From contig NZ_VKKX01000033.1 in assembly GCF_008271655.1 (NCBI RefSeq), positions 62,001-126,000 of the forward strand: a DNA stretch of 64,000 bases, given 5' to 3'. A program made the translations under genes and the position numbers. This document shows, piece after piece, positions 9,269 through 21,575 of this stretch. The notes under the pieces are model-generated. The model saw only the letters and a list, made by a program, of their open reading frames with translations, had not been told where the DNA came from and made no database searches. How positions within the stretch are numbered: position 1 is the first letter of the stretch; every line of letters starts with the position of its first letter. Source of the stretch: Gemmobacter caeruleus. GTDB lineage: Bacteria; Pseudomonadota; Alphaproteobacteria; Rhodobacterales; Rhodobacteraceae.

Positions 9269-10479
9269 TGCAGGATGAACGCCCGACAGGCGTTTCGCGT
9301 CCTCCGCCCGTTCTTGCACCCGGCACACTGGATTTTGTCTGTATCGCGGTGTCGAACTGGGGGGTTGTCGCCTCGAACCCCGATTACACCATCCGCCATC
9401 TCGCGCGGCTGGGGCATCGCGTTCTGGTCGTGGAGCCTTTTGAATCGCTGTCCTCCTGGGTGCGCAGCGCGCGTATCCAGAAACGCAAGCGCGCGGCCGG
9501 CACGGCGCTGCGCGAGGTGGAGCCGAATATCTGGGTCTATCGCCCGCCACCGCTGGCGATGATCGGCCAGTCGCGCCACCCCGCCGCCGCCCGGATCAGC
9601 GGGCGGCTGCTCTCGCGGCTGGTGCGGCGGGTGACGCGGCGGCTGGGCTTTCGCGACATCTGCCTGTGGAGCTTCATGTATAACACCGGCACGCTGCTGC
9701 GGGATTTTCCGGCGCGGCTGAAAATCTATGAATGCGGCGATGACGATGCCGCGTTGGCCCGGACCGAGGCGCAGCGACGCACCGTGCGCCAATTGGATGC
9801 CGAGGTTTGCGCCGCCGCCGATCTGGTCTTTGCGGTGACCGAGGAGCTGTGCGCGCCGCGTCGCGCCACCAACCCCGACACGCACGAGGTGAATTGCGGG
9901 GCCGATATCGGGTTCTTTGGTCAGGCCCTGCGCCCCGAAACCCCGGTGCCTGCCGCGATTGCCGGGCTGAAACACCCGGTCATCGGCTATTTCGGCGGGC
10001 TCGACCCGTGGAAGATCGACATACCGCTGATCGCCGCCATGGCGCGGCTGCGGCCCGACTGGTCTTTTGCCTTTGTGGGCTATGTCTGGTTCGGCTTTGA
10101 TCCGGCGGTATTCGGCGGGGTCAGCAATGTCCATATCCTTGGCCCGCAGGATTATGCGCGCATTCCGGGCTTCATGAAGGGGATGGATCTGGGGCTGATG
10201 CCCTTTCCGCTCAATGACATCACGCGCAATGGCGATGCGCTGAAATGCTACGAATACCTCGCGGCCGGCTTGCCGGTGGTGGGGCGCGACGTGCCGGTGG
10301 CGCGGCGGCTGCGGTCGCTGGTCGCCGTGGGTGACACACCCGAGGAATTCATCGCCGCCTGCGAGGCCCAACTGGCCAGCCCCGTCACCCGCGCCGCGCG
10401 GGCCAGCGCCATGGCGGGGCATGACTGGTCGGTGCGGGTGGAACGCAAGTTGCGCCTGATCGCGGAGCGGCTGCCATGA
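9268..10479 (+). CDS. Glycosyltransferase (GT-B fold, GT4-like)
   Basis: A 403-residue protein expected to transfer a sugar to the growing repeat unit on the cytoplasmic face. The N-terminal half contains a 'RHLARLGHRVLVVEP' acceptor-domain pattern. The C-terminal half has GYFGGLDPWK, GPQDYARIPGFM and the donor-site segment LKCYEYLAAGLPVVG, in which the EX7E-type glutamate precedes AAGLPVV as in GT4 enzymes. The start at 9268 overlaps the preceding stop (TAATG) with a GAAGGA ribosome site; an in-frame ATG at 9208 lies inside the methyltransferase gene and is rejected. The stop overlaps the GT2-fusion gene by 4 nt. Confidence 0.8.
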   Translation: MQDERPTGVSRPPPVLAPGTLDFVCIAVSNWGVVASNPDYTIRHLARLGHRVLVVEPFESLSSWVRSARIQKRKRAAGTALREVEPNIWVYRPPPLAMIGQSRHPAAARISGRLLSRLVRRVTRRLGFRDICLWSFMYNTGTLLRDFPARLKIYECGDDDAALARTEAQRRTVRQLDAEVCAAADLVFAVTEELCAPRRATNPDTHEVNCGADIGFFGQALRPETPVPAAIAGLKHPVIGYFGGLDPWKIDIPLIAAMARLRPDWSFAFVGYVWFGFDPAVFGGVSNVHILGPQDYARIPGFMKGMDLGLMPFPLNDITRNGDALKCYEYLAAGLPVVGRDVPVARRLRSLVAVGDTPEEFIAACEAQLASPVTRAARASAMAGHDWSVRVERKLRLIAERLP

Positions 10480-12650
10480 CGATCGGACAGCGCTTTGCCG
10501 AAACCGCGTCCCAGACCGCCGCGCCGGATCTGTCGATCCTCTTGGTCAGCCATGGCCATGGCGATTTCGTGCGCGATTGTCTGGCCTCGCTGGATGCGGC
10601 GGCGCTGCATGGCCTGCGGCACGAGGTGATCGTGCTGGACAACCTGCACGAACCCGATTTCGCCACCCGGATCGGCGGTCTGCACCCGGGGCTGATCTTG
10701 CTGCACAATACGCAGCCGATGGGCTTTGGCGCAAACATGAATAAATGTGCGGAAATAGCGACGGGGCGGGTCTTGCTGATCCTGAACCCCGACACGGCCT
10801 ATCATGCCGGCGATCTCGCACAGGCGCTGCGCCTGCTGGAGGATGACCCCGCCTGTGGCATCGTCGCGGCGCGGCTGGTGAACGAAGATGGCAGCGATCA
10901 GCGCAATTTCCGGCACTTTCCGACGGCAGCGATCACCGCGCTGCGCGGCTTTGGCGTGCAGGACTGGGCGCGCCAGCCCGGCTTTTATCGCCGCTACATG
11001 ATGGAGGACCGGCCGCTGGACGGCCCGACCGAGGTCGATTGGGTCTATGGGTCGTTCATGCTGATCCGGCGCAGCACCTTTGCGGCGCTTGGCGGCTTTG
11101 ATCCCGGCTATTTCATGTATTACGAGGATGTCGATCTCTGCCTGCGGCTGCGGCGGGCGGGGCTGAAGATCGTCGTCGATCCGCAGTTGCAGTTCTTGCA
11201 TCACCATCAGCGCAGCTCGGCCCAGCGTGGCGAAACGCGGCTGCGCGCGCATCACCTGCGCAGCTTTCGGCGCTATCTGTGGCGCAGCCATGCCTGCCTG
11301 TTTCCGCCCGCCACCTCGGACCGGCCCGATCCGGTACCGCAGCCGCTGCGCGGGGCGCTGCCGTTTCTGCTGGCCGCGGCGCAACTGGGCGCGGTCTGGC
11401 TGGCCGGGGGGCTGGCCGCCGCGCTGGCGCCGGCGGGAACGGGCAGTTTTCACGCCTTCGGACTGGGGCTGCTGCTGGTGCTGGCGCAGTATACGCTGGC
11501 GGAATATGCGCCCACGCGGCTGGGCGACACGCCGCGCCGGGTGATCGGCGTGCTGGAGGGGCTGGTGCTGGCCAGCCTGCCCTGGATCCTGCTGCGGTTG
11601 ATCCCCGGCGGGGCGCCGCCCTCTTTTCTGGCGCTGGCGGGGTTTCTGGCGCTGGCCGCGCTGCTGGCGGCCGGGGTGACCTATGGGGTGACACTGGCGA
11701 TCCCTGCGACCGGGCTGCGGATGGCGGTCGTGACCGATGGCAGGGCCGGCGGGCTGGCGCAGGGGCTGGGCCGGCCGGTGCCGGTCGCGATGACGGTGAT
11801 CGAGAGCCAGGACATCGCCGCGGGCACCGGCGCGGTGGCGCAGGCCATCGCCGCGGCGCTGCGGGCCGGGCGGATCGACGCGGTGCTGCTGGTCCTGCCC
11901 GAGGCGCGCGACGAACGCGCGCTGCGGCTGGTGCGGGCGCTGTCGATGTTCGACCTGCCGATCTGGCATCTGCGCCGCGAACCGGGTCAGCCCCCCGACC
12001 GCCCGATCCTGCTGCGCGGCCCGCTGCGGTCGCGCACGCGCGAGGGGTTGAAGCGCGGGCTAGACCTGCTGCTGGGCCTGTCGGCGCTGGCGGTGCTGGC
12101 AGTGCCGATGCTGATCGTCGCCGCGCTGATCAAGCTGGAGGATGGCGGCCCGGTCTTCTTTGCCCAGCCGCGTGACGGGCGCAACCAACAGCCCTTCGCG
12201 ATGCTCAAGTTCCGCACGATGAAGGCCCGCGATACCGACCGGCGCGGCGATCTGCTGACCCTGCGCAACGATGCCCGCATCACCCGGATCGGGGCCTTTC
12301 TGCGCAAGACCTCGATCGACGAATTGCCCCAGCTTTTCAACGTTGTGGCGGGGCATATGTCGATCGTCGGGCCGCGCCCCCTGCCGCTGCATTTCCACTT
12401 TCACGAGGTGCTGTTCGAGGCGGTCGTGCCCGACTGGCACCACCGCCACCGCGTCAAGCCGGGCATCACCGGCCTGTCGCAGCTGCGCGGCCTGCGCGGC
12501 ACGCCCGAAACCGCCGAGGGCGCGATCCGCATGATGACGGACCGGGGGCTTTACGACAATCTCTACATCGACAACTGGACGATCTGGCTTGATCTGCGGA
12601 TCATCGTCATGACACTCCTGTCGGGGGCTTTCATGGCCGGGGCCTATTAG
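10476..12650 (+). CDS. Fusion of GT2 glycosyltransferase and WcaJ/PssY-type phosphoglycosyltransferase
   Basis: A 724-residue protein with two enzyme modules. Residues about 18-245 form a GT2 domain (SILLVSHGHGDF, NPDTA at 104-108, YEDVDLCLR near 216). Four membrane segments follow near 293-318, 325-345, 357-377 and 383-408. Residues about 414-505 resemble the degenerate nucleotide-binding cytosolic domain of polyprenyl-phosphate hexose-1-phosphate transferases. The last 200 residues hold the catalytic module: a membrane helix near 528-552, then KFRTM (578-582), SIDELPQ (613-619) and GPRPLP (632-637). It should initiate repeat-unit assembly on undecaprenyl phosphate, and the GT2 part may add a following sugar. 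It is the last gene of the plus-strand exopolysaccharide operon, overlapping the preceding gene by 4 nt. Confidence 0.85.
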   Translation: MTIGQRFAETASQTAAPDLSILLVSHGHGDFVRDCLASLDAAALHGLRHEVIVLDNLHEPDFATRIGGLHPGLILLHNTQPMGFGANMNKCAEIATGRVLLILNPDTAYHAGDLAQALRLLEDDPACGIVAARLVNEDGSDQRNFRHFPTAAITALRGFGVQDWARQPGFYRRYMMEDRPLDGPTEVDWVYGSFMLIRRSTFAALGGFDPGYFMYYEDVDLCLRLRRAGLKIVVDPQLQFLHHHQRSSAQRGETRLRAHHLRSFRRYLWRSHACLFPPATSDRPDPVPQPLRGALPFLLAAAQLGAVWLAGGLAAALAPAGTGSFHAFGLGLLLVLAQYTLAEYAPTRLGDTPRRVIGVLEGLVLASLPWILLRLIPGGAPPSFLALAGFLALAALLAAGVTYGVTLAIPATGLRMAVVTDGRAGGLAQGLGRPVPVAMTVIESQDIAAGTGAVAQAIAAALRAGRIDAVLLVLPEARDERALRLVRALSMFDLPIWHLRREPGQPPDRPILLRGPLRSRTREGLKRGLDLLLGLSALAVLAVPMLIVAALIKLEDGGPVFFAQPRDGRNQQPFAMLKFRTMKARDTDRRGDLLTLRNDARITRIGAFLRKTSIDELPQLFNVVAGHMSIVGPRPLPLHFHFHEVLFEAVVPDWHHRHRVKPGITGLSQLRGLRGTPETAEGAIRMMTDRGLYDNLYIDNWTIWLDLRIIVMTLLSGAFMAGAY

Positions 12651-14648: not shown

Positions 14649-14676
14649 ACCGCCGCCCAATCGGGCGGCGGTTTTG
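14649..14676 (+). terminator. Rho-independent terminator after the ThiE-like gene
   Basis: A perfect 10-bp GC-rich stem (ACCGCCGCCC / GGGCGGCGGT) around an AATC loop, followed by TTTTG. It lies 28 nt after the stop codon, ends the TfoX-N/ThiE-like unit and separates it from the transglutaminase operon. Confidence 0.85.
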
Positions 14677-14766: not shown

Positions 14767-17700
14767 ATGGCGATCCATGCCAGCATCCATCACCTGACCC
14801 ATTACAAATACGACCGCCCGGTGACGCTGGGCCCGCAGATCATCCGGCTGCGCCCGGCGCCGCAATCGCGGACCAAGGTGCTGTCGCACAGTCTCAAGGT
14901 GTCGCCCGGCGGGCATTTCGTGAACCACCAGCAGGATCCCTATGGCAACTGGCTGGCGCGGTTCGTCTTTCCCGAGCCCGTGACCGAATTTCGGATCGAG
15001 GTCGATCTGGTGGCCGACATGTCGGTCTATAATCCCTTCGATTTCTTCGTCGAAGACAGCGCCGAATTCTGGCCCTTTGAATATCCGCGCGATCTGGCCG
15101 ATGATCTGGTGATCTACCGCACGCCAGAACCCGCCGGCCCGCTGCTGGAATCGTTTCTGGAAACCGTGCCGCGCGACAAGGCCCGCACCACCGATTTTCT
15201 GGTGGCACTGAATGCGCGGGTGAATGGCGTGGTGAATTACACCATCCGCATGGAGCCCGGCGTCCAGACCCCCGAAGAGACGCTGCATGCCAAATCCGGC
15301 TCGTGCCGCGATTCGAGCTGGCTTCTGGTGCAGGCGCTGCGGCATCTCGGTTTCGCGGCGCGCTTTGTCTCGGGCTATCTGATCCAGTTGGCGCCGGATG
15401 TGAAATCGCTTGATGGCCCTTCGGGGACCGAGGTCGATTTCACCGATCTTCACGCCTGGGTGGAGGTCTATATTCCCGGTGCGGGCTGGATCGGGCTGGA
15501 TCCGACCAGCGGCCTTTTGACCGGCGAAAGCCATATTCCGCTGGCGGCCACCCCGCATTACCGCAACGCCGCGCCAATCTCGGGCGGGTTTTCGGCGGTC
15601 GGCACGCCCGAGGTCAGCTTCGATTTCGACATGCAGGTGCGGCGGGTCGCCGAACATCCGCGCATCACCAAACCCTTCAGCGATACCGCCTGGGAGGATC
15701 TGAACGCGCTTGGCCGGAAGGTGGATGAAAGCCTGCGCGACAGCGATCTGCGCCTGACCATGGGGGGCGAGCCGACCTTCGTGTCGATCGACGATTTCGA
15801 GGGGGCAGAGTGGAACACCGCTGCCGTCGGCCCGCAAAAGCGCGACCGCGCCGATGACCTGATCCGCCGCTTGCGCAGCCGCTTTGCGCCGGGTGGTTTC
15901 CTGCATTACGGGCAAGGCAAGTGGTATCCCGGCGAAAGCCTGCCGCGCTGGACCTTCTCGCTCTATTGGCGGCGCGACGGGATGCCGGTCTGGCAGAACC
16001 CCGATCTCGTCGCGCGCGAGGCGCAGGATTACCAGGTCGGCGCCGCTGAGGCGGGGCGGTTCATGGAGGGGTTCGCCGAACGGCTGGGCATTTCGCCCGA
16101 ACACGCGCAGCCCGCCTATGAGGATCCGGCGGAATGGATCCTGAAAGAGGCCAATCTACCGCCCAATGTCAGCCCCGAGAACAGCAAGCTGAAGGATGCC
16201 GAGGAACGGTCGCGCTTCGCCCGGGTGTTTTCGCGCGGGTTGACCGAACCGTCGGGCTTTGTCCTGCCGATCCAGCGCTGGCAATCGCAGGCCAGTGGAC
16301 CACGCTGGCGGTCGGAGATGTGGAAGCCCCGGCGCGGGCATCTGTTCCTGGTGCCCGGTGACAGCCCGGTGGGCTATCGCCTGCCGCTGGCGGGGCTGCC
16401 CTATATCCCGCCGGCGCAATATCCCTACAGCTATCCGGCCGATACCTCGATCCCGCTGGCGCCGCTGCCCGATTTCCACGCGGCGCTCGCCGCCCGCCGC
16501 GCCGAGGTGCAGGCGGAAATCGACCGTCTGGCGCGAGAGGAGGCGCTGGAGCAGGCCGCCATGCTGCCCGAGGTCAGCGCCGATTTCGCCCAGCCGGGCG
16601 CGGTGAAGGCCGATACCGGCCGCCGACAGCCGGTCGTGGCGCAGATGGGCGTGGACCCCGCGCAAGGCTGGGTGCGCACCGCCATCGCGATGGAGCCCCG
16701 CGACGGGCGGCTCTGTCTGTTCATGCCGCCCTGCGAGACGCTGGAGGATTACCTTGAATTGCTGGCGACCGCCGAGGCGACGGCGGCCGATCTGAACCTG
16801 CCGGTGCATATCGAGGGCTATGCCCCGCCGCATGACGCGCGGCTGAATGTGATCCGCGTGGCGCCCGATCCCGGCGTGATCGAGGTGAACATCCACCCCG
16901 CCCATAGCTGGGAAGATTGCGTCGCCACCACCGAGGCAATCTATGAGGAGGCACGGCAAAGCCGTCTGGGCGCCGACAAGTTCATGATCGACGGGCGCCA
17001 TACCGGCACAGGCGGCGGCAACCATGTGGTTGTCGGTGGCGCCACGATGGAAGACAGCCCCTTTCTGCGCCGCCCCGATCTGCTGAAATCGCTGATCCTG
17101 ATCTGGCAGCGGCACCCTTCGCTGTCCTATCTGTTCTCGGGCCTGTTCATCGGCCCGACCAGCCAGGCCCCCCGCATCGACGAGGCGCGGCATGACAGCC
17201 TGTATGAACTGGAAATCGCGCTGGCCCAGATCGGCGATCCGGTGGCGGGCGGCCCCTTGCCGCCGCCCTGGCTGGTGGACCGGCTGCTGCGCAACATCCT
17301 GATCGACGTGACCGGCAATACCCACCGGGCCGAGATCTGCATCGACAAGCTTTATTCGCCCGATGGCCCGACCGGGCGGCTGGGTCTGGTGGAATTCCGC
17401 GGCTTCGAGATGCCGCCGCATCCGCGCATGAACCTCGCGCAGCAATTGCTGATCCGGGCGCTGATCGCGCGCTGCGCCAAGGCGCCGGTGCGGGGCAAGC
17501 CGGTCCGCTGGGGCACGGTGCTGCATGACCGTTTCATGCTGCCGCATTACATCTGGGCCGATTTCCTGTCGCTGCTCGACGATCTGGCGCAACATGGGTT
17601 CAAACTGGATCCGGTCTGGTATCAGGCGCAGGCCGAATTCCGCTTTCCCTTCTGCGGTCAGATCGAGGTGGAGGGCGTGCATCTGGAACTGCGGCAGGCG

Positions 17701-18192
17701 TTGGAGCCGTGGCATGTGCTGGGCGAAACCGGTGCCATCGGCGGCACGGTGCGCTATACCGACAGCTCGGTCGAACGGTTGCAGGTGCGCATGACCACCC
17801 TGTCGCAAGACCGCTACCGCATCATGTGCAACCGCCGCCCGGTGCCGCTGACCCGCACCACGACCAGCGGCGAAAGCGTGGGGGGCGTGCGGTTCAAGGC
17901 CTGGCAGCCGGCGGCCGCCCTGCATCCGGTCCTACCGGTCAATGCGCCACTGACCTTTGACATCTATGATGACTGGTCGGGCCGGGCCATCGGCGGCTGT
18001 GTCTATCACGTCGCCCATCCGGGCGGGCGGAATTACGACACCTTCCCCGTGAACGGATACGAGGCCGAGGCACGGCGGCTGGCACGGTTCGAGGCGCATG
18101 GCCATGCGCCCGGCAGCTATGTCCCCGCGACCGAGGCGCCGCATCCGGAATTTCCGATGACGCTCGACCTGCGGCGCGCGCCATGGATATAA
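14767..18192 (+). CDS. Large transglutaminase-DUF2126 fusion protein
   Basis: A 1141-residue cytoplasmic protein. Residues 1-90 are the bacterial transglutaminase-like N-domain. Residues about 165-260 are the transglutaminase core with a complete triad: Cys180 (GSCRDSSW), His229 (DLHAWVEVY) and Asp245 (LDPTSG). The remaining roughly 850 residues are the DUF2126 region, with conserved-looking [11 protein letters not shown] and [14 protein letters not shown] segments and an [13 protein letters not shown] segment that resemble glutamine-synthetase-like amidoligase motifs (tentative). It heads a three-gene operon with an ATP-grasp/alpha-E protein and a second transglutaminase. In other bacteria such genes accompany the Anbu protease and are predicted to make or edit peptide bonds on proteins or peptides. 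The substrate is unknown. Confidence 0.85.
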
Positions 18193-18199
18193 CGGGGGC

Positions 18200-20590
18200 A
18201 TGAACATCGCCACCGCCGCCCCCGATCTGCCCGAAATCCTTCGGGGTTATGTGCCGCAACCCGGCGTGGCGGACGAATTGTTCGACGCGCAGGGCGTCAT
18301 GCGGCCGGTCTGGGCGCCCTTCATCGCCCAGTTGGCCGGCCTGTCGGCCGAGGATGTGGCGGCGCGTTTTGCCCGGGGCGAGCAGTATCTGCGCGATGCG
18401 GGCGTCTATTTCCGGCTCTATAGCGGCGGCCCGGCGCAAGAGCGCGAATGGCCGCTGTCGCATGTGCCGGTGCTGCTTTCCGATGCCGACTGGCAGGGCA
18501 TCTGCGACGGGCTGGCCCAGCGGGCAGAGCTGCTGGAACAGGTCATGGCCGATCTCTACGGCCCGGGGCGTCTGGTGGCCGAGGGTCATCTGCCGGCCGA
18601 ACTTGTCGCGCAGAACCCGAGCTGGCTGCGCCCGCTGGTCGGCGTTGTGCCACGGTCGGGCCACTGGCTGCATCATCTGGCCTTCGAGATCGGGCGCTCG
18701 CCCGACGGGTCGTTCTTTGTGCTGGGCGACCGGGCGCAGGCGCCCTCCGGTTCGGGCTTCGCGCTGGAAAACCGCATGGCGACCATGCGCATCTTCTCCG
18801 ACCCGTTCCCCCGCGCCAATGTGCGGCGTCTGGCCGGGTTCTTTCGCGGCTTCCGGCAGGCGATGGAGGATCAGGCCGGGCCGGGCCGGCGCATGGCGAT
18901 CCTGACGCCGGGGCCGAATAACGATACCTATTACGAACATACCTATATCGCCCGCTACCTTGGCATGACCCTGCTGGAGGGCGAGGATCTGATCGTGCGC
19001 GACGGCGAAGCCATGGTGCGCACCGTGCGGGGGCTGGAGCCGCTGGGCCTGCTCTGGCGCCGCATCGACAGCGAATTCGCTGATCCGCTGGAACTGAACG
19101 AGGGCTCGCAGATCGGCACCCCCGGCCTGATCGAGGCGCTGCGGCAGGGCAATCTGGGCCTGGTCAATGCGCTCGGCTCAGGGGTGATCGAGGCGCGGGC
19201 GATGATGGCCTTCCTGCCCCGCATCAGCGAGGTCTTGCTGGGCGCGCCGCTCAAGCTGCCGAATATCGCGACCTGGTGGTGCGGTCAGCCGCTGGAACGC
19301 GCCTATGTCGAACAGAACGCGGCCGGCATGATGATCGGCGCGGCGCTTGATCCGGCCTTGCCCTTTGCGATCGGCGCCGAAACCGTGCTGGGCGGACAAT
19401 TTCGCGGCAGTGCCAGCCCCGGCCCCCTGCCCGAATGGCTGGCCCGCGAAGGGTCGCGGCTGGTCGGGCAAGAGGCGGTCACCCTGTCCACCACCCCGGC
19501 CTGGAGCGAGGGGCGCCTGGTGCCGCGCCCGATGACGATCCGCGTCTTTGCCGCCCGCACCCCCGAGGGCTGGACCTTCATGCCCGGCGGCTATGCCCGC
19601 ATCGGCAAATCCGACGATACGACCGCGCTGGCCATGCAGGCGGGCGGGTCGGTCGCCGATGTCTGGGTGGTGGCGCCGCGCGCCGTGGCGCCCGACAGTC
19701 TGGTCCCCGGCAGTAGCTTCGAGCGCAGCCCGCCCGGCATCCTGCCTTCACGCGCGGCCGACAACCTTTATTGGCTGGGCCGCTATATCGAACGGACAGA
19801 AGGCGCGATCCGCCTGCTGCGCGCCTGGCATCTGCGGCTGGCCGAGACCGGTGACCGCGATGAGCCGCGGTTGCAACTCATGTCGGCGCATATGGCGGCG
19901 CGCGGGCTCAACCCTGATTTGCCGATCCCCGAAGGGCTCGCACTGCTGATCGGGGCGGCACGCATTTCGGCCGCGCGCGTGCGCGACCGTTTCTCGCCCG
20001 ATGGCTGGGGGGCGCTGAACGATCTGGCGCGCACCGCCGACAAGCTGGCCGCCAAGGTGAGCGATGGCGATGACGCCGCGCTGGCCATGTCGATCCTGTT
20101 GCGCAAGATCTCGGGCTTTTCGGGGCTGGTGCATGAAAACATGTATCACTTTGCCGGCTGGCGCTTTCTGTCGCTGGGCCGGGCGCAGGAACGCGCCGAT
20201 GGCACGCTGATGTCGCTTCAGGCCTTTGCCGACCCCGCTGCCCCGCCCGGCACGCTGGATGTCGCGATCGAGATCGGCGACAGCACCATGACGCATCAGC
20301 GCCGCTACCGCTTTGGCCCCAGCCGCGAGACCGTGCTGGATCTGCTGCTGCTGGATGCGCAGAACCCGCGCTCGGTGCTGTATCAGATTGCGCAGATGCG
20401 CCACCATGTCGGCAAGCTGCCGCAGGCCGGCAGCGGCGGGCGCCTGTCGCCCCTGGAACGCGCCCTGCTGCTGCTCGATACCGATCTGCGGGTCTTCGGG
20501 CCGTCGGACGTGACGCCCGCGCAGCTTGACGACCTGCGCGCCCGCCTGGCCGAGGTGTTCGACCTGCTCGCGCTGTCTTTCCTGAGGTAG
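18200..20590 (+). CDS. Circularly permuted ATP-grasp / alpha-E domain fusion protein
   Basis: A 796-residue protein. Residues about 30-480 match the circularly permuted type 2 ATP-grasp pair (DUF404/DUF407), with segments such as ILTPGPNNDTYYEHTYIAR, LLEGEDLIVRDG and the basic/acidic pattern LWRRIDSEFADPLEL. Residues about 515-790 match the helical alpha-E domain (DUF403), beginning RAADNLYWLGRYIERTEGAIRLLRA. These two domains are often separate genes; here they are fused. ATP-grasp ligases activate a carboxylate with ATP and join it to an amine or thiol, so the protein is a candidate peptide ligase working with the two flanking transglutaminase-fold proteins. Spacing is 7 nt upstream and 3 nt downstream, so translational coupling is likely. 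Confidence 0.87.
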   Translation: MNIATAAPDLPEILRGYVPQPGVADELFDAQGVMRPVWAPFIAQLAGLSAEDVAARFARGEQYLRDAGVYFRLYSGGPAQEREWPLSHVPVLLSDADWQGICDGLAQRAELLEQVMADLYGPGRLVAEGHLPAELVAQNPSWLRPLVGVVPRSGHWLHHLAFEIGRSPDGSFFVLGDRAQAPSGSGFALENRMATMRIFSDPFPRANVRRLAGFFRGFRQAMEDQAGPGRRMAILTPGPNNDTYYEHTYIARYLGMTLLEGEDLIVRDGEAMVRTVRGLEPLGLLWRRIDSEFADPLELNEGSQIGTPGLIEALRQGNLGLVNALGSGVIEARAMMAFLPRISEVLLGAPLKLPNIATWWCGQPLERAYVEQNAAGMMIGAALDPALPFAIGAETVLGGQFRGSASPGPLPEWLAREGSRLVGQEAVTLSTTPAWSEGRLVPRPMTIRVFAARTPEGWTFMPGGYARIGKSDDTTALAMQAGGSVADVWVVAPRAVAPDSLVPGSSFERSPPGILPSRAADNLYWLGRYIERTEGAIRLLRAWHLRLAETGDRDEPRLQLMSAHMAARGLNPDLPIPEGLALLIGAARISAARVRDRFSPDGWGALNDLARTADKLAAKVSDGDDAALAMSILLRKISGFSGLVHENMYHFAGWRFLSLGRAQERADGTLMSLQAFADPAAPPGTLDVAIEIGDSTMTHQRRYRFGPSRETVLDLLLLDAQNPRSVLYQIAQMRHHVGKLPQAGSGGRLSPLERALLLLDTDLRVFGPSDVTPAQLDDLRARLAEVFDLLALSFLR

Positions 20591-20593
20591 CCG

Positions 20594-21478
20594 ATGCGCT
20601 ATGACATCCAGCTGACCATCGACTATCACTATGACGCACCTTCGGACCATGCGCGCAACATCCTGCGGCTCTTGCCGCTGGAGACACCGCAGCAGACCGT
20701 CACCGCGCGGTTGCTGACAGTCGATCCGCCCCCCGATGAACGTCGCGACCAGCAGGATTTCTTTGGCAATGCCATGACCACCGTCGCCTGGCATCAGCCG
20801 GTCGAAAAGATCAGCTTTCGCCTGCGCGCCCGGGCCGAGCGGCACCCCCAGCCCGTCAGTGACCTGTCGGCGCCGCTGGCCGATCTGGCGGCGGATCTGG
20901 AACAGGCGGGGCTTGAACCGGCCTCGCCGCTGCATTTCCTTGGTGCCTCGCCCCGCATCCCACCCGAGGCAGAGATTACCGCCTTTGTCCGCGCCGCCCT
21001 TCCCCCTGCCCCCAGCACCCGCGCCGCGGTCGAGGCCATCGGTCGCGCCTTGCATGAGGTGATGACCTATGACGCCGAGGCGACCGATGTCGGCACCACG
21101 CCGCAGGCGGCCTTTGCCCTGCGGCGCGGGGTTTGCCAGGATTTCGCGCAGATCATGATCGCGGGGCTGCGCGCGCTTGGCATTCCGGCGGGCTATGTCT
21201 CGGGGTTTCTGCGCACCTATCCGCCGCCGGGCCAACCTCGGCTGGAGGGGGTGGATGCCATGCATGCCTGGGTTGCCGCCTGGTGCGGGGCGGCGCAGGG
21301 ATGGGTGGAATATGACCCGACCAATGCGCAATGGGCGGGCGAGGATTACATCACCGTGGCAATGGGTCGCGACTATGCCGATGTGGCGCCGGTGCGTGGC
21401 GCGCTGCGCTCCGCCGGTGGGCAGGACAGCACGCAGGCGGTGGACGTGATCCCCCTCGACACCCCGACACCCGGCTGA
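20594..21478 (+). CDS. Transglutaminase-like cysteine protease family protein
   Basis: A 294-residue protein with a bacterial transglutaminase-like N-domain (about 1-80) and a transglutaminase core carrying the full triad Cys181 (RRGVCQDFAQ), His224 (AMHAWVAAW) and Asp241 (EYDPTNAQW). Proteins of this type usually hydrolyse or transfer amide bonds. It is the last gene of the operon begun by the 1141-residue fusion. The usual next gene in this neighbourhood, the Anbu proteasome-type protease, is not present: a terminator and the convergent clpB follow. With the ATP-grasp ligase, the pair of transglutaminases could form a ligation/cleavage cycle, which is an inference from family roles. Confidence 0.85.
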   Translation: MRYDIQLTIDYHYDAPSDHARNILRLLPLETPQQTVTARLLTVDPPPDERRDQQDFFGNAMTTVAWHQPVEKISFRLRARAERHPQPVSDLSAPLADLAADLEQAGLEPASPLHFLGASPRIPPEAEITAFVRAALPPAPSTRAAVEAIGRALHEVMTYDAEATDVGTTPQAAFALRRGVCQDFAQIMIAGLRALGIPAGYVSGFLRTYPPPGQPRLEGVDAMHAWVAAWCGAAQGWVEYDPTNAQWAGEDYITVAMGRDYADVAPVRGALRSAGGQDSTQAVDVIPLDTPTPG

Positions 21479-21551: not shown

Positions 21552-21575
21552 AAAGGGGGCCGTGTGGCCCCCTTT
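21552..21575. terminator. Bidirectional terminator between the transglutaminase operon and clpB
   Basis: A perfect 10-bp inverted repeat AAAGGGGGCC / GGCCCCCTTT with a GTGT loop. It has T-rich flanks on both strands, so it can stop both the plus-strand operon and the convergent clpB transcript. Confidence 0.8.

Follow-up and report, generated by a model that had tools for sequence, protein, structure and literature searches.

Operons in which ATP-grasp, alpha-E and transglutaminase genes accompany that of Anbu, a peptidase of the Proteasome family, have been described previously (PMC5666114; PMC6376114), and the ATP-grasp protein of Yersinia bercovieri was reported to free phosphate from ATP (PMC6376114). 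A second family, exemplified by Rv2566 of Mycobacterium tuberculosis, joins an N-terminal transglutaminase-like domain to a region (DUF2126) that was grouped by profile searches in the carboxylate-amine ligase superfamily; peptide formation was proposed for it, with no Pup-like open reading frame (ORF) nearby, and the passage on it does not take up an ATP-grasp/alpha-E fusion or a dependence on the Anbu-type operon (PMC2588565). The stretch analyzed here, referred to as the window, comprises 64,000 nucleotides (nt) of Gemmobacter caeruleus (assembly GCF_008271655.1, contig NZ_VKKX01000033.1, positions 62,001 to 126,000 of the forward strand). Its positions 14767–21478 carry three plus-strand genes encoding a transglutaminase-DUF2126 fusion (gene 1), a circularly permuted (CP) ATP-grasp fused to Alpha-E (gene 2, the fused gene) and a second, stand-alone transglutaminase (gene 3, Tg2), which is the gene content of a DUF2126-type operon. 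Three families are held in common with the Anbu operon, from which the window operon differs in having DUF2126 and the fused ATP-grasp/alpha-E, in having no Anbu, and in an ATP-grasp without the residues expected for ATP. We propose, at about an even chance of being right, a peptide-conjugation pathway of two arms, in which the window operon supplies the accessory (DUF2126) arm and the canonical Anbu operon the other. The proposal is carried by two observations, namely, that the fused ATP-grasp is probably a pseudo-enzyme and that, by profile searches of sampled genomes, the two arms go together.

Gene 1 also resembles glutathionylspermidine synthetase/amidase (Gss) of Escherichia coli, whose mechanism brings amidase and synthetase together, an amidase and an ATP-dependent synthetase being annotated in one chain in strain K-12. 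The synthetase part of gene 1 is, however, DUF2126 and not ATP-grasp, and in an hhalign comparison run without a control the profile of the separate ATP-grasps did not match the one Gss sequence from E. coli. PafA-type pupylation ligases are likened to DUF2126 through their common superfamily (PMC2588565) alone, and no Pup-like gene is present in the window operon, where the intergenic gaps are 7 nt (gene 1/gene 2) and 3 nt (gene 2/gene 3). RloABC of Pseudomonas aeruginosa likewise combines genes for an ATP-grasp, a transglutaminase-type protein and a protease in a single operon, but these belong to other families, RloB being described as an inactive, membrane-bound transglutaminase and RloA as a retropepsin-like protease (PMC12239564).

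Residues of the fused ATP-grasp protein and its partners

Gene 2 (18200..20590, 796 amino acids (aa); called from ORF, Pfam and structure model) matched the Pfam families CP_ATPgrasp_2 (1.1e-120) and Alpha-E (1.5e-55; helical domain at residues 515-794, 19742..20581). Its structural model, with a predicted local distance difference test (pLDDT) score of 89.6, was closest to 3n6x (E 1.9e-28) and then to glutathione synthetases (human, 1.1e-10), showing a glutathione-synthetase-type ATP-grasp fold. The ATP-grasp domain (18467..19603) is nevertheless predicted to be a pseudo-enzyme, on the basis of this fold match and of a residue comparison between 52 separate ATP-grasps (>440 aa) and 130 fused proteins (>700 aa), numbered by the Anbu-arm protein. 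Glu173 and Asn175 were both present in 52/52 separate ATP-grasps, whereas Glu173 was found in 2/130 and Asn175 in 0/130 fused proteins, and the two together in none. The Asn175 position was occupied by Arg in 115/130 fused proteins and by His in 9. Lys334 was left in 2, Asp441 in 0, Asn472 in 1, Gly387 in 6 and Lys381 in 17 of the 130; among 65 invariant polar or glycine positions, by contrast, 24 were kept in at least 90% of them. In the window protein G176-D177-R178 (18725-18733) replaces Glu-x-Asn, so that Gly176 and Arg178 stand in place of the expected metal ligands; with G380 and I391, the expected nucleotide lysine and glycine-rich loop are likewise missing. The roles of these residues were assigned by conservation and by likeness to E281/N283 of GshB, on a motif and fold basis with no superposed ligand; in glutathione synthetase Glu281 and Asn283 are ligands of the two Mg ions of ADP (PMC11117183).

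The same contrast was obtained in additional sets. Among seven named records, which span actinobacterial and acidobacterial fused proteins as well as deinococcal and bacteroidete separate ones, the pair was missing in 4/4 fused and present in 5/5 separate proteins, and among 32 loci added later it was missing in 29/29 fused and present in 17/17 separate proteins; five fused genes without the pair (L277, L282-L285) were counted as fused by hand. Overall, the Glu-x-Asn pair was found in 0/163 fused and 74/74 separate proteins, most of them from related alphaproteobacteria. The tree of the 52 separate and 130 fused proteins showed a clean split (FastTree support 1.0). The initial annotation had proposed ATP-grasp ligase chemistry for gene 2 and had named loss of the catalytic residues in the ATP-grasp core as a ground for rejecting its reading; the fold is indeed present, but the expected Mg-ATP residues are gone. 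The site may be changed rather than dead, since in PEARL enzymes the same Asn was replaced by His when the site accepted aminoacyl-tRNA (PMC11117183). An account of the ATP-site loss across the fused family, or of the strict dependence between arms described below, was not found in the literature searched, which lay outside the key 2009 survey (Iyer et al.), and both may already be known. The fusion itself is published and the operon type is common; the pseudo-ATP-grasp and the strict dependence are the testable points.

If the fused ATP-grasp is probably a pseudo-enzyme, DUF2126 is left as probably the only plausible ATP-dependent ligase of the operon. Gene 1 (14767..18192, 1141 aa; ORF and Pfam) consists of a transglutaminase part (residues 1-281) and DUF2126 (residues 282-1136, 15610..18174), the latter matching PF09899, 'Putative amidoligase enzyme', at E=0 (1315 bits). 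DUF2126 is predicted to be a glutamine-synthetase (GS)-like amidoligase from Pfam, the published profile searches and Foldseek matches that are weak. Conservation was high, with 323 columns at ≥97% over 37 full proteins, and E683, E706, N708, H753, R854, E876 and R878 are among the invariant positions. Alignment A1 held 36 of the 38 DUF2126 proteins of the class sample, without L039, whose start was over-long, and L041, whose gene is interrupted. Broken DUF2126 genes were encountered in three genomes: with an in-frame stop in L041 (G194) and L279 (G284), and split and shortened in L294 (G421).

A full Cys-His-Asp triad had been claimed for gene 1 and a complete transglutaminase for gene 3, and by alignment the triads of both are intact. 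The core of gene 1 (residues 140-246, 15184..15504; Bact_transglu_N 2e-27, Transglut_core 1.4e-17) carries C180, H229 and D245 in invariant alignment columns; among its relatives (127 of 137 DUF2126 proteins used) Cys and His were kept in 127/127 and Asp in 125/127, with two gaps. Gene 3 (20594..21478, 294 aa; ORF and Pfam, Bact_transglu_N 3e-19, Transglut_core 7.4e-18) has the triad C181/H224/D241, with Cys and His in 129/129 and Asp in 128/129 relatives. Foldseek matched the gene 1 model to 3isr (1.1e-12); in a PDB sequence search its transglutaminase part was the sole match, with nothing credible for DUF2126.

The canonical Anbu operon and its distribution with DUF2126

When the assembly that contains the window (55 contigs, 3.99 Mb) was searched with the Proteasome-family profile, two places were found, both outside the window, which bears out the earlier statement that Anbu is missing from the operon neighborhood. 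One was taken by eye from the sequence for HslV, beside HslU. The other place is that of Anbu, whose gene closes a four-gene operon on contig C52 (G000:C52 / L003:6065-10111), the window operon being on C23. The genes encode the canonical ATP-grasp (L003:6065-7528), alpha-E (L003:7491-8483), transglutaminase (L003:8483-9316) and Anbu (ATG at L003:9386). The initial annotation had argued from the absence of the protease that the operon may have its own substrate; this is not supported, since another contig carries the complete ATP-grasp/alpha-E/transglutaminase/Anbu operon. A co-regulated, functional Anbu elsewhere in the genome had been named as a finding that would speak against that argument, and of this the presence alone was found. 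Beside the canonical operon lies a large ORF (L003 3965-5791), M3 oligoendopeptidase-like by eye, and beyond it an amino-acid ABC transporter-like set, also by eye.

Two genome samples, one of the class (241 genomes) and one of the phylum (299 genomes), were searched for the families of both arms. In the class sample DUF2126 was present in 38 genomes, Anbu in 81 and CP_ATPgrasp_2 in 103. The CP-ATP-grasp family occurred in 38/38 genomes with DUF2126 vs. 65/203 without it (Fisher p 8e-17, related genomes being treated as independent) and, in the phylum sample, in 96/96 vs. 79/203, which is at odds with the stand-alone action suggested earlier. A separate, canonical-type ATP-grasp was counted in all 38 and all 96 of these DUF2126 genomes; for the phylum sample this type was assigned from scores, the best E being ≤1.2e-157 per DUF2126 genome vs. 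2.5e-154 for the best class fused gene. A separate ATP-grasp match was also found in 42/42 genomes with a fused gene (two only partial, G172 and G194), counted by eye, with open frames from about 780 aa upward taken as fused and with G215 (two partial matches) left out. Anbu itself was present in 32/38 genomes with DUF2126 vs. 49/203 without it (class).

The two arms are also joined at some loci. In the class, 33/38 DUF2126 loci have the fused gene and a second transglutaminase, and Anbu lies in 2/38 of the stretches (L042, L070). Among the best 80 of at least 591 genome-contig hits, nearly all named as alphaproteobacteria, 71 had the fused gene and second transglutaminase, and none of the stretches had Anbu or a separate ATP-grasp. 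Outside the class, the phylum sample has 52 genomes with DUF2126, and all were analyzed in stretches of 11-20 kb, the first 20 hand-picked after ATP-grasp proximity had been noted in some and the other 32 added later. The fused gene and second transglutaminase were found in 46/52 of these loci. A separate ATP-grasp shared the stretch in 34/52 (15/20 of the first and 19/32 of the later loci), at a gap of <4 kb in 23; three of the 34 are partial genes (L208, L272, L298). Anbu was found in 12/52 stretches, in 11 of them ≤150 nt from, or overlapping, the transglutaminase-DUF2126 gene (L198, L202, L210, L270, L271, L273, L275, L276, L279, L280, L281), and hence Anbu can share an operon directly with that gene. 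Six-gene runs in the order ATP-grasp, alpha-E, transglutaminase, transglutaminase-DUF2126, fused and transglutaminase occur in L194 and L199, and the same order recurs in a record of Burkholderia cenocepacia (L263). An Enterobacter plasmid (IncFII, L266) has a five-gene joined cluster with arsC nearby, so that plasmids can carry the system. The three-gene form of the window is also found in Granulicella (Acidobacteriota, L264). Divergent Anbu relatives were observed at L110 5328-6113 (40% identity) and L111 5008-5814 (37%), in genomes which also have DUF2126; no ATP-grasp, alpha-E or transglutaminase was found in the 11-kb stretch around either.

A survey for further conserved genes, in which ORFs of ≥100 aa were clustered over 138 loci and nine representatives were scanned, gave only ABC transporter, solute-binding, SDR and similar proteins of varying position and one without a family, with the exception of Peptidase_Mx (PF15887; one representative scanned). 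This zinc metallopeptidase-like protein is encoded near DUF2126 in 14/138 loci (L056, L068, L148, L150, L161, L164, L167, L182, L183, L184, L190, L204, L205, L211), at <300 nt in 12 and <3 kb in two, mostly divergently. Of the 19 class genomes with a Peptidase_Mx match <1e-70, CP-ATP-grasp was present in 19/19 and DUF2126 in 13; the genome of the window gave no match.

As for the borders of the window operon, a thiE-like gene (TMP-TENI) lies upstream and a convergent clpB downstream. Plus-strand hairpins were found at 14649..14672 (z -3.9), likely the terminator of the thiE-like gene, and at 21552..21575 (z -4.3), between the operon and clpB. The ORF calls and Pfam domains agree with the gene content and coordinates first given, and the Pfam families confirm the kinship to predicted peptide-ligation families; NCBIfam assigned no family to any of the three proteins. 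That the operon is sealed by a terminator is likely, though unproven: hairpins bound the unit on both sides, but the T-tracts of both are short and a consensus terminator scan listed neither. Elsewhere in the window, positions 10476-12650 encode a 724-aa protein with a GT2 glycosyltransferase domain and a bacterial sugar transferase domain.

A proposed two-arm pathway and its alternatives

In the proposed pathway the canonical ATP-grasp would make a peptide or amide product from ATP, and DUF2126 would add a second ATP-dependent amide bond. The fused pseudo-ATP-grasp/alpha-E would be non-catalytic, binding or presenting the product or pairing with the live ATP-grasp. The transglutaminase-type Cys domains may undo these bonds or transfer them, comparably to the joint work of amidase and synthetase in the single chain of Gss, and Anbu, where present, would trim or degrade the product. 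The probable role of the pathway is in nitrogen starvation, because such a cluster is NtrC- and sigma54-dependent in B. cenocepacia H111 (I35_5080-83; PMC5491218). That cluster, annotated as DUF404/DUF407, DUF403, transglutaminase and 'large protein containing transglutaminase-like domain' (PMC5491218), matches by order and names the first four genes of L263, which is from another strain. Similarly, PP_2686-2688 of the Pseudomonas putida Anbu operon were up under nitrogen limitation (PMC7801951), PP_2685 and PP_2688 were named nitrogen-sensitive (PMC8050072), and on an Acidithiobacillus plasmid genes of the system lie near glnL and ntrC.

Several observations weigh against this reading. The separate ATP-grasp is present in just 6/38 class stretches, the arms being mostly apart, and the co-occurrence tests count related genomes as independent. 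Among ATP-grasp genomes the difference in Anbu vanishes (32/38 with DUF2126 vs. 49/65 without, p 0.33), so that DUF2126 is tied to the canonical ATP-grasp arm and not to Anbu as such. In 8/42 genomes the fused gene and Tg2 are found where DUF2126 is absent, a Tg2-type transglutaminase adjoining the fused gene in the seven inspected (L092-L098), and the fused gene is absent from 4/38 DUF2126 genomes; the three genes are thus not an obligate trio. Published pull-downs gave no stable complex of Anbu and its operon proteins (PMC6376114). With regard to nitrogen, the published NtrC cluster has four genes, without the fused gene and Tg2 (PMC5491218), PP_2685 (Anbu) was barely up in two of three strains (1.12, 4.81, 1.45; PMC7801951), and Anbu operon expression was described as unchanged under various other conditions (PMC5666114). 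Neither an NtrC nor a sigma54 pattern stands out upstream of either arm in this genome, so that nitrogen regulation rests on other species; in the window the sigma54 pattern was not enriched (103 matches vs. 91.7 expected). The amidoligase assignment of DUF2126, put forward in the initial annotation, still stands, but structure prediction followed by Foldseek gave only weak GS-family matches to the gene 1 model (E 0.056-0.2; 4hpp 0.056). That model has a pLDDT of 78.2, falling below 50 in the conserved stretches 741-749, 845-872 and 982-997. Comparison of DUF2126 with the GS and GCS2 profiles by hhalign gave no match, and neither did the positive control, GS vs. GCS2.

The alternative that survives best, although it is unlikely, is that the operon is catabolic, its transglutaminase-type domains being peptidases or amidases that free nitrogen under shortage while DUF2126 and the pseudo-ATP-grasp merely bind or activate the substrate. 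Transglutaminase folds also act as Cys peptidases, Anbu has a peptidase fold and Peptidase_Mx recurs near DUF2126. The nitrogen regulation seen in other species, for joined as well as canonical clusters (PMC5491218; PMC7801951), also favors such a role. On the other side, DUF2126 keeps many invariant residues and is related to ATP-dependent ligases by the published profile searches, neither of which proves synthesis.

A fuller version of the two-arm reading, which we hold to be rather improbable as a whole, takes both operons for one nitrogen-starvation pathway with the canonical ATP-grasp and the GS-like DUF2126 as live ligases in series. The pseudo-ATP-grasp/alpha-E would stand between them; its emptied nucleotide site (Asn to Arg/His, other conserved Arg kept) would carry or receive either the peptide as it grows or a donor linked to a nucleotide, and the result would be a reversible peptide or isopeptide modification removed by Anbu.

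That the operon ligates peptides independently, on a substrate of its own and with the fused ATP-grasp as an active ligase, now appears very unlikely. The three-gene unit with hairpins at both borders, the absence of a separate ATP-grasp from 32/38 class stretches, the intact transglutaminase triads, the Pfam name of gene 2 and the Lys381 kept in some fused proteins (17/130) all favor it, but the Glu-x-Asn pair is missing in 163/163 fused proteins, the CP-ATP-grasp family accompanies DUF2126 in every sampled genome and the Anbu arm lies in the same genome. It is least credible of all that the arms are redundant paralogues which perform one function side by side and are found together through shared ancestry and transfer, for although the ATP-grasp, alpha-E and transglutaminase families are common to both, the canonical arm has no DUF2126 counterpart, only one of the two cleanly separated ATP-grasp groups has lost its ATP residues, and the joined layouts of the two gene sets differ outside the class.

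Anbu is discussed as an ancestor of the proteasome; in one published study it showed no activity towards three standard proteasome substrates (PMC6376114). If the DUF2126 arm belongs to the same pathway, as the two-arm reading holds, tests restricted to the canonical arm may miss half of the components wherever both arms occur. The predicted pseudo-ATP-grasp would likewise redirect assays, as the ATP-dependent step of the operon should be sought in DUF2126 and not in the protein annotated as ATP-grasp.

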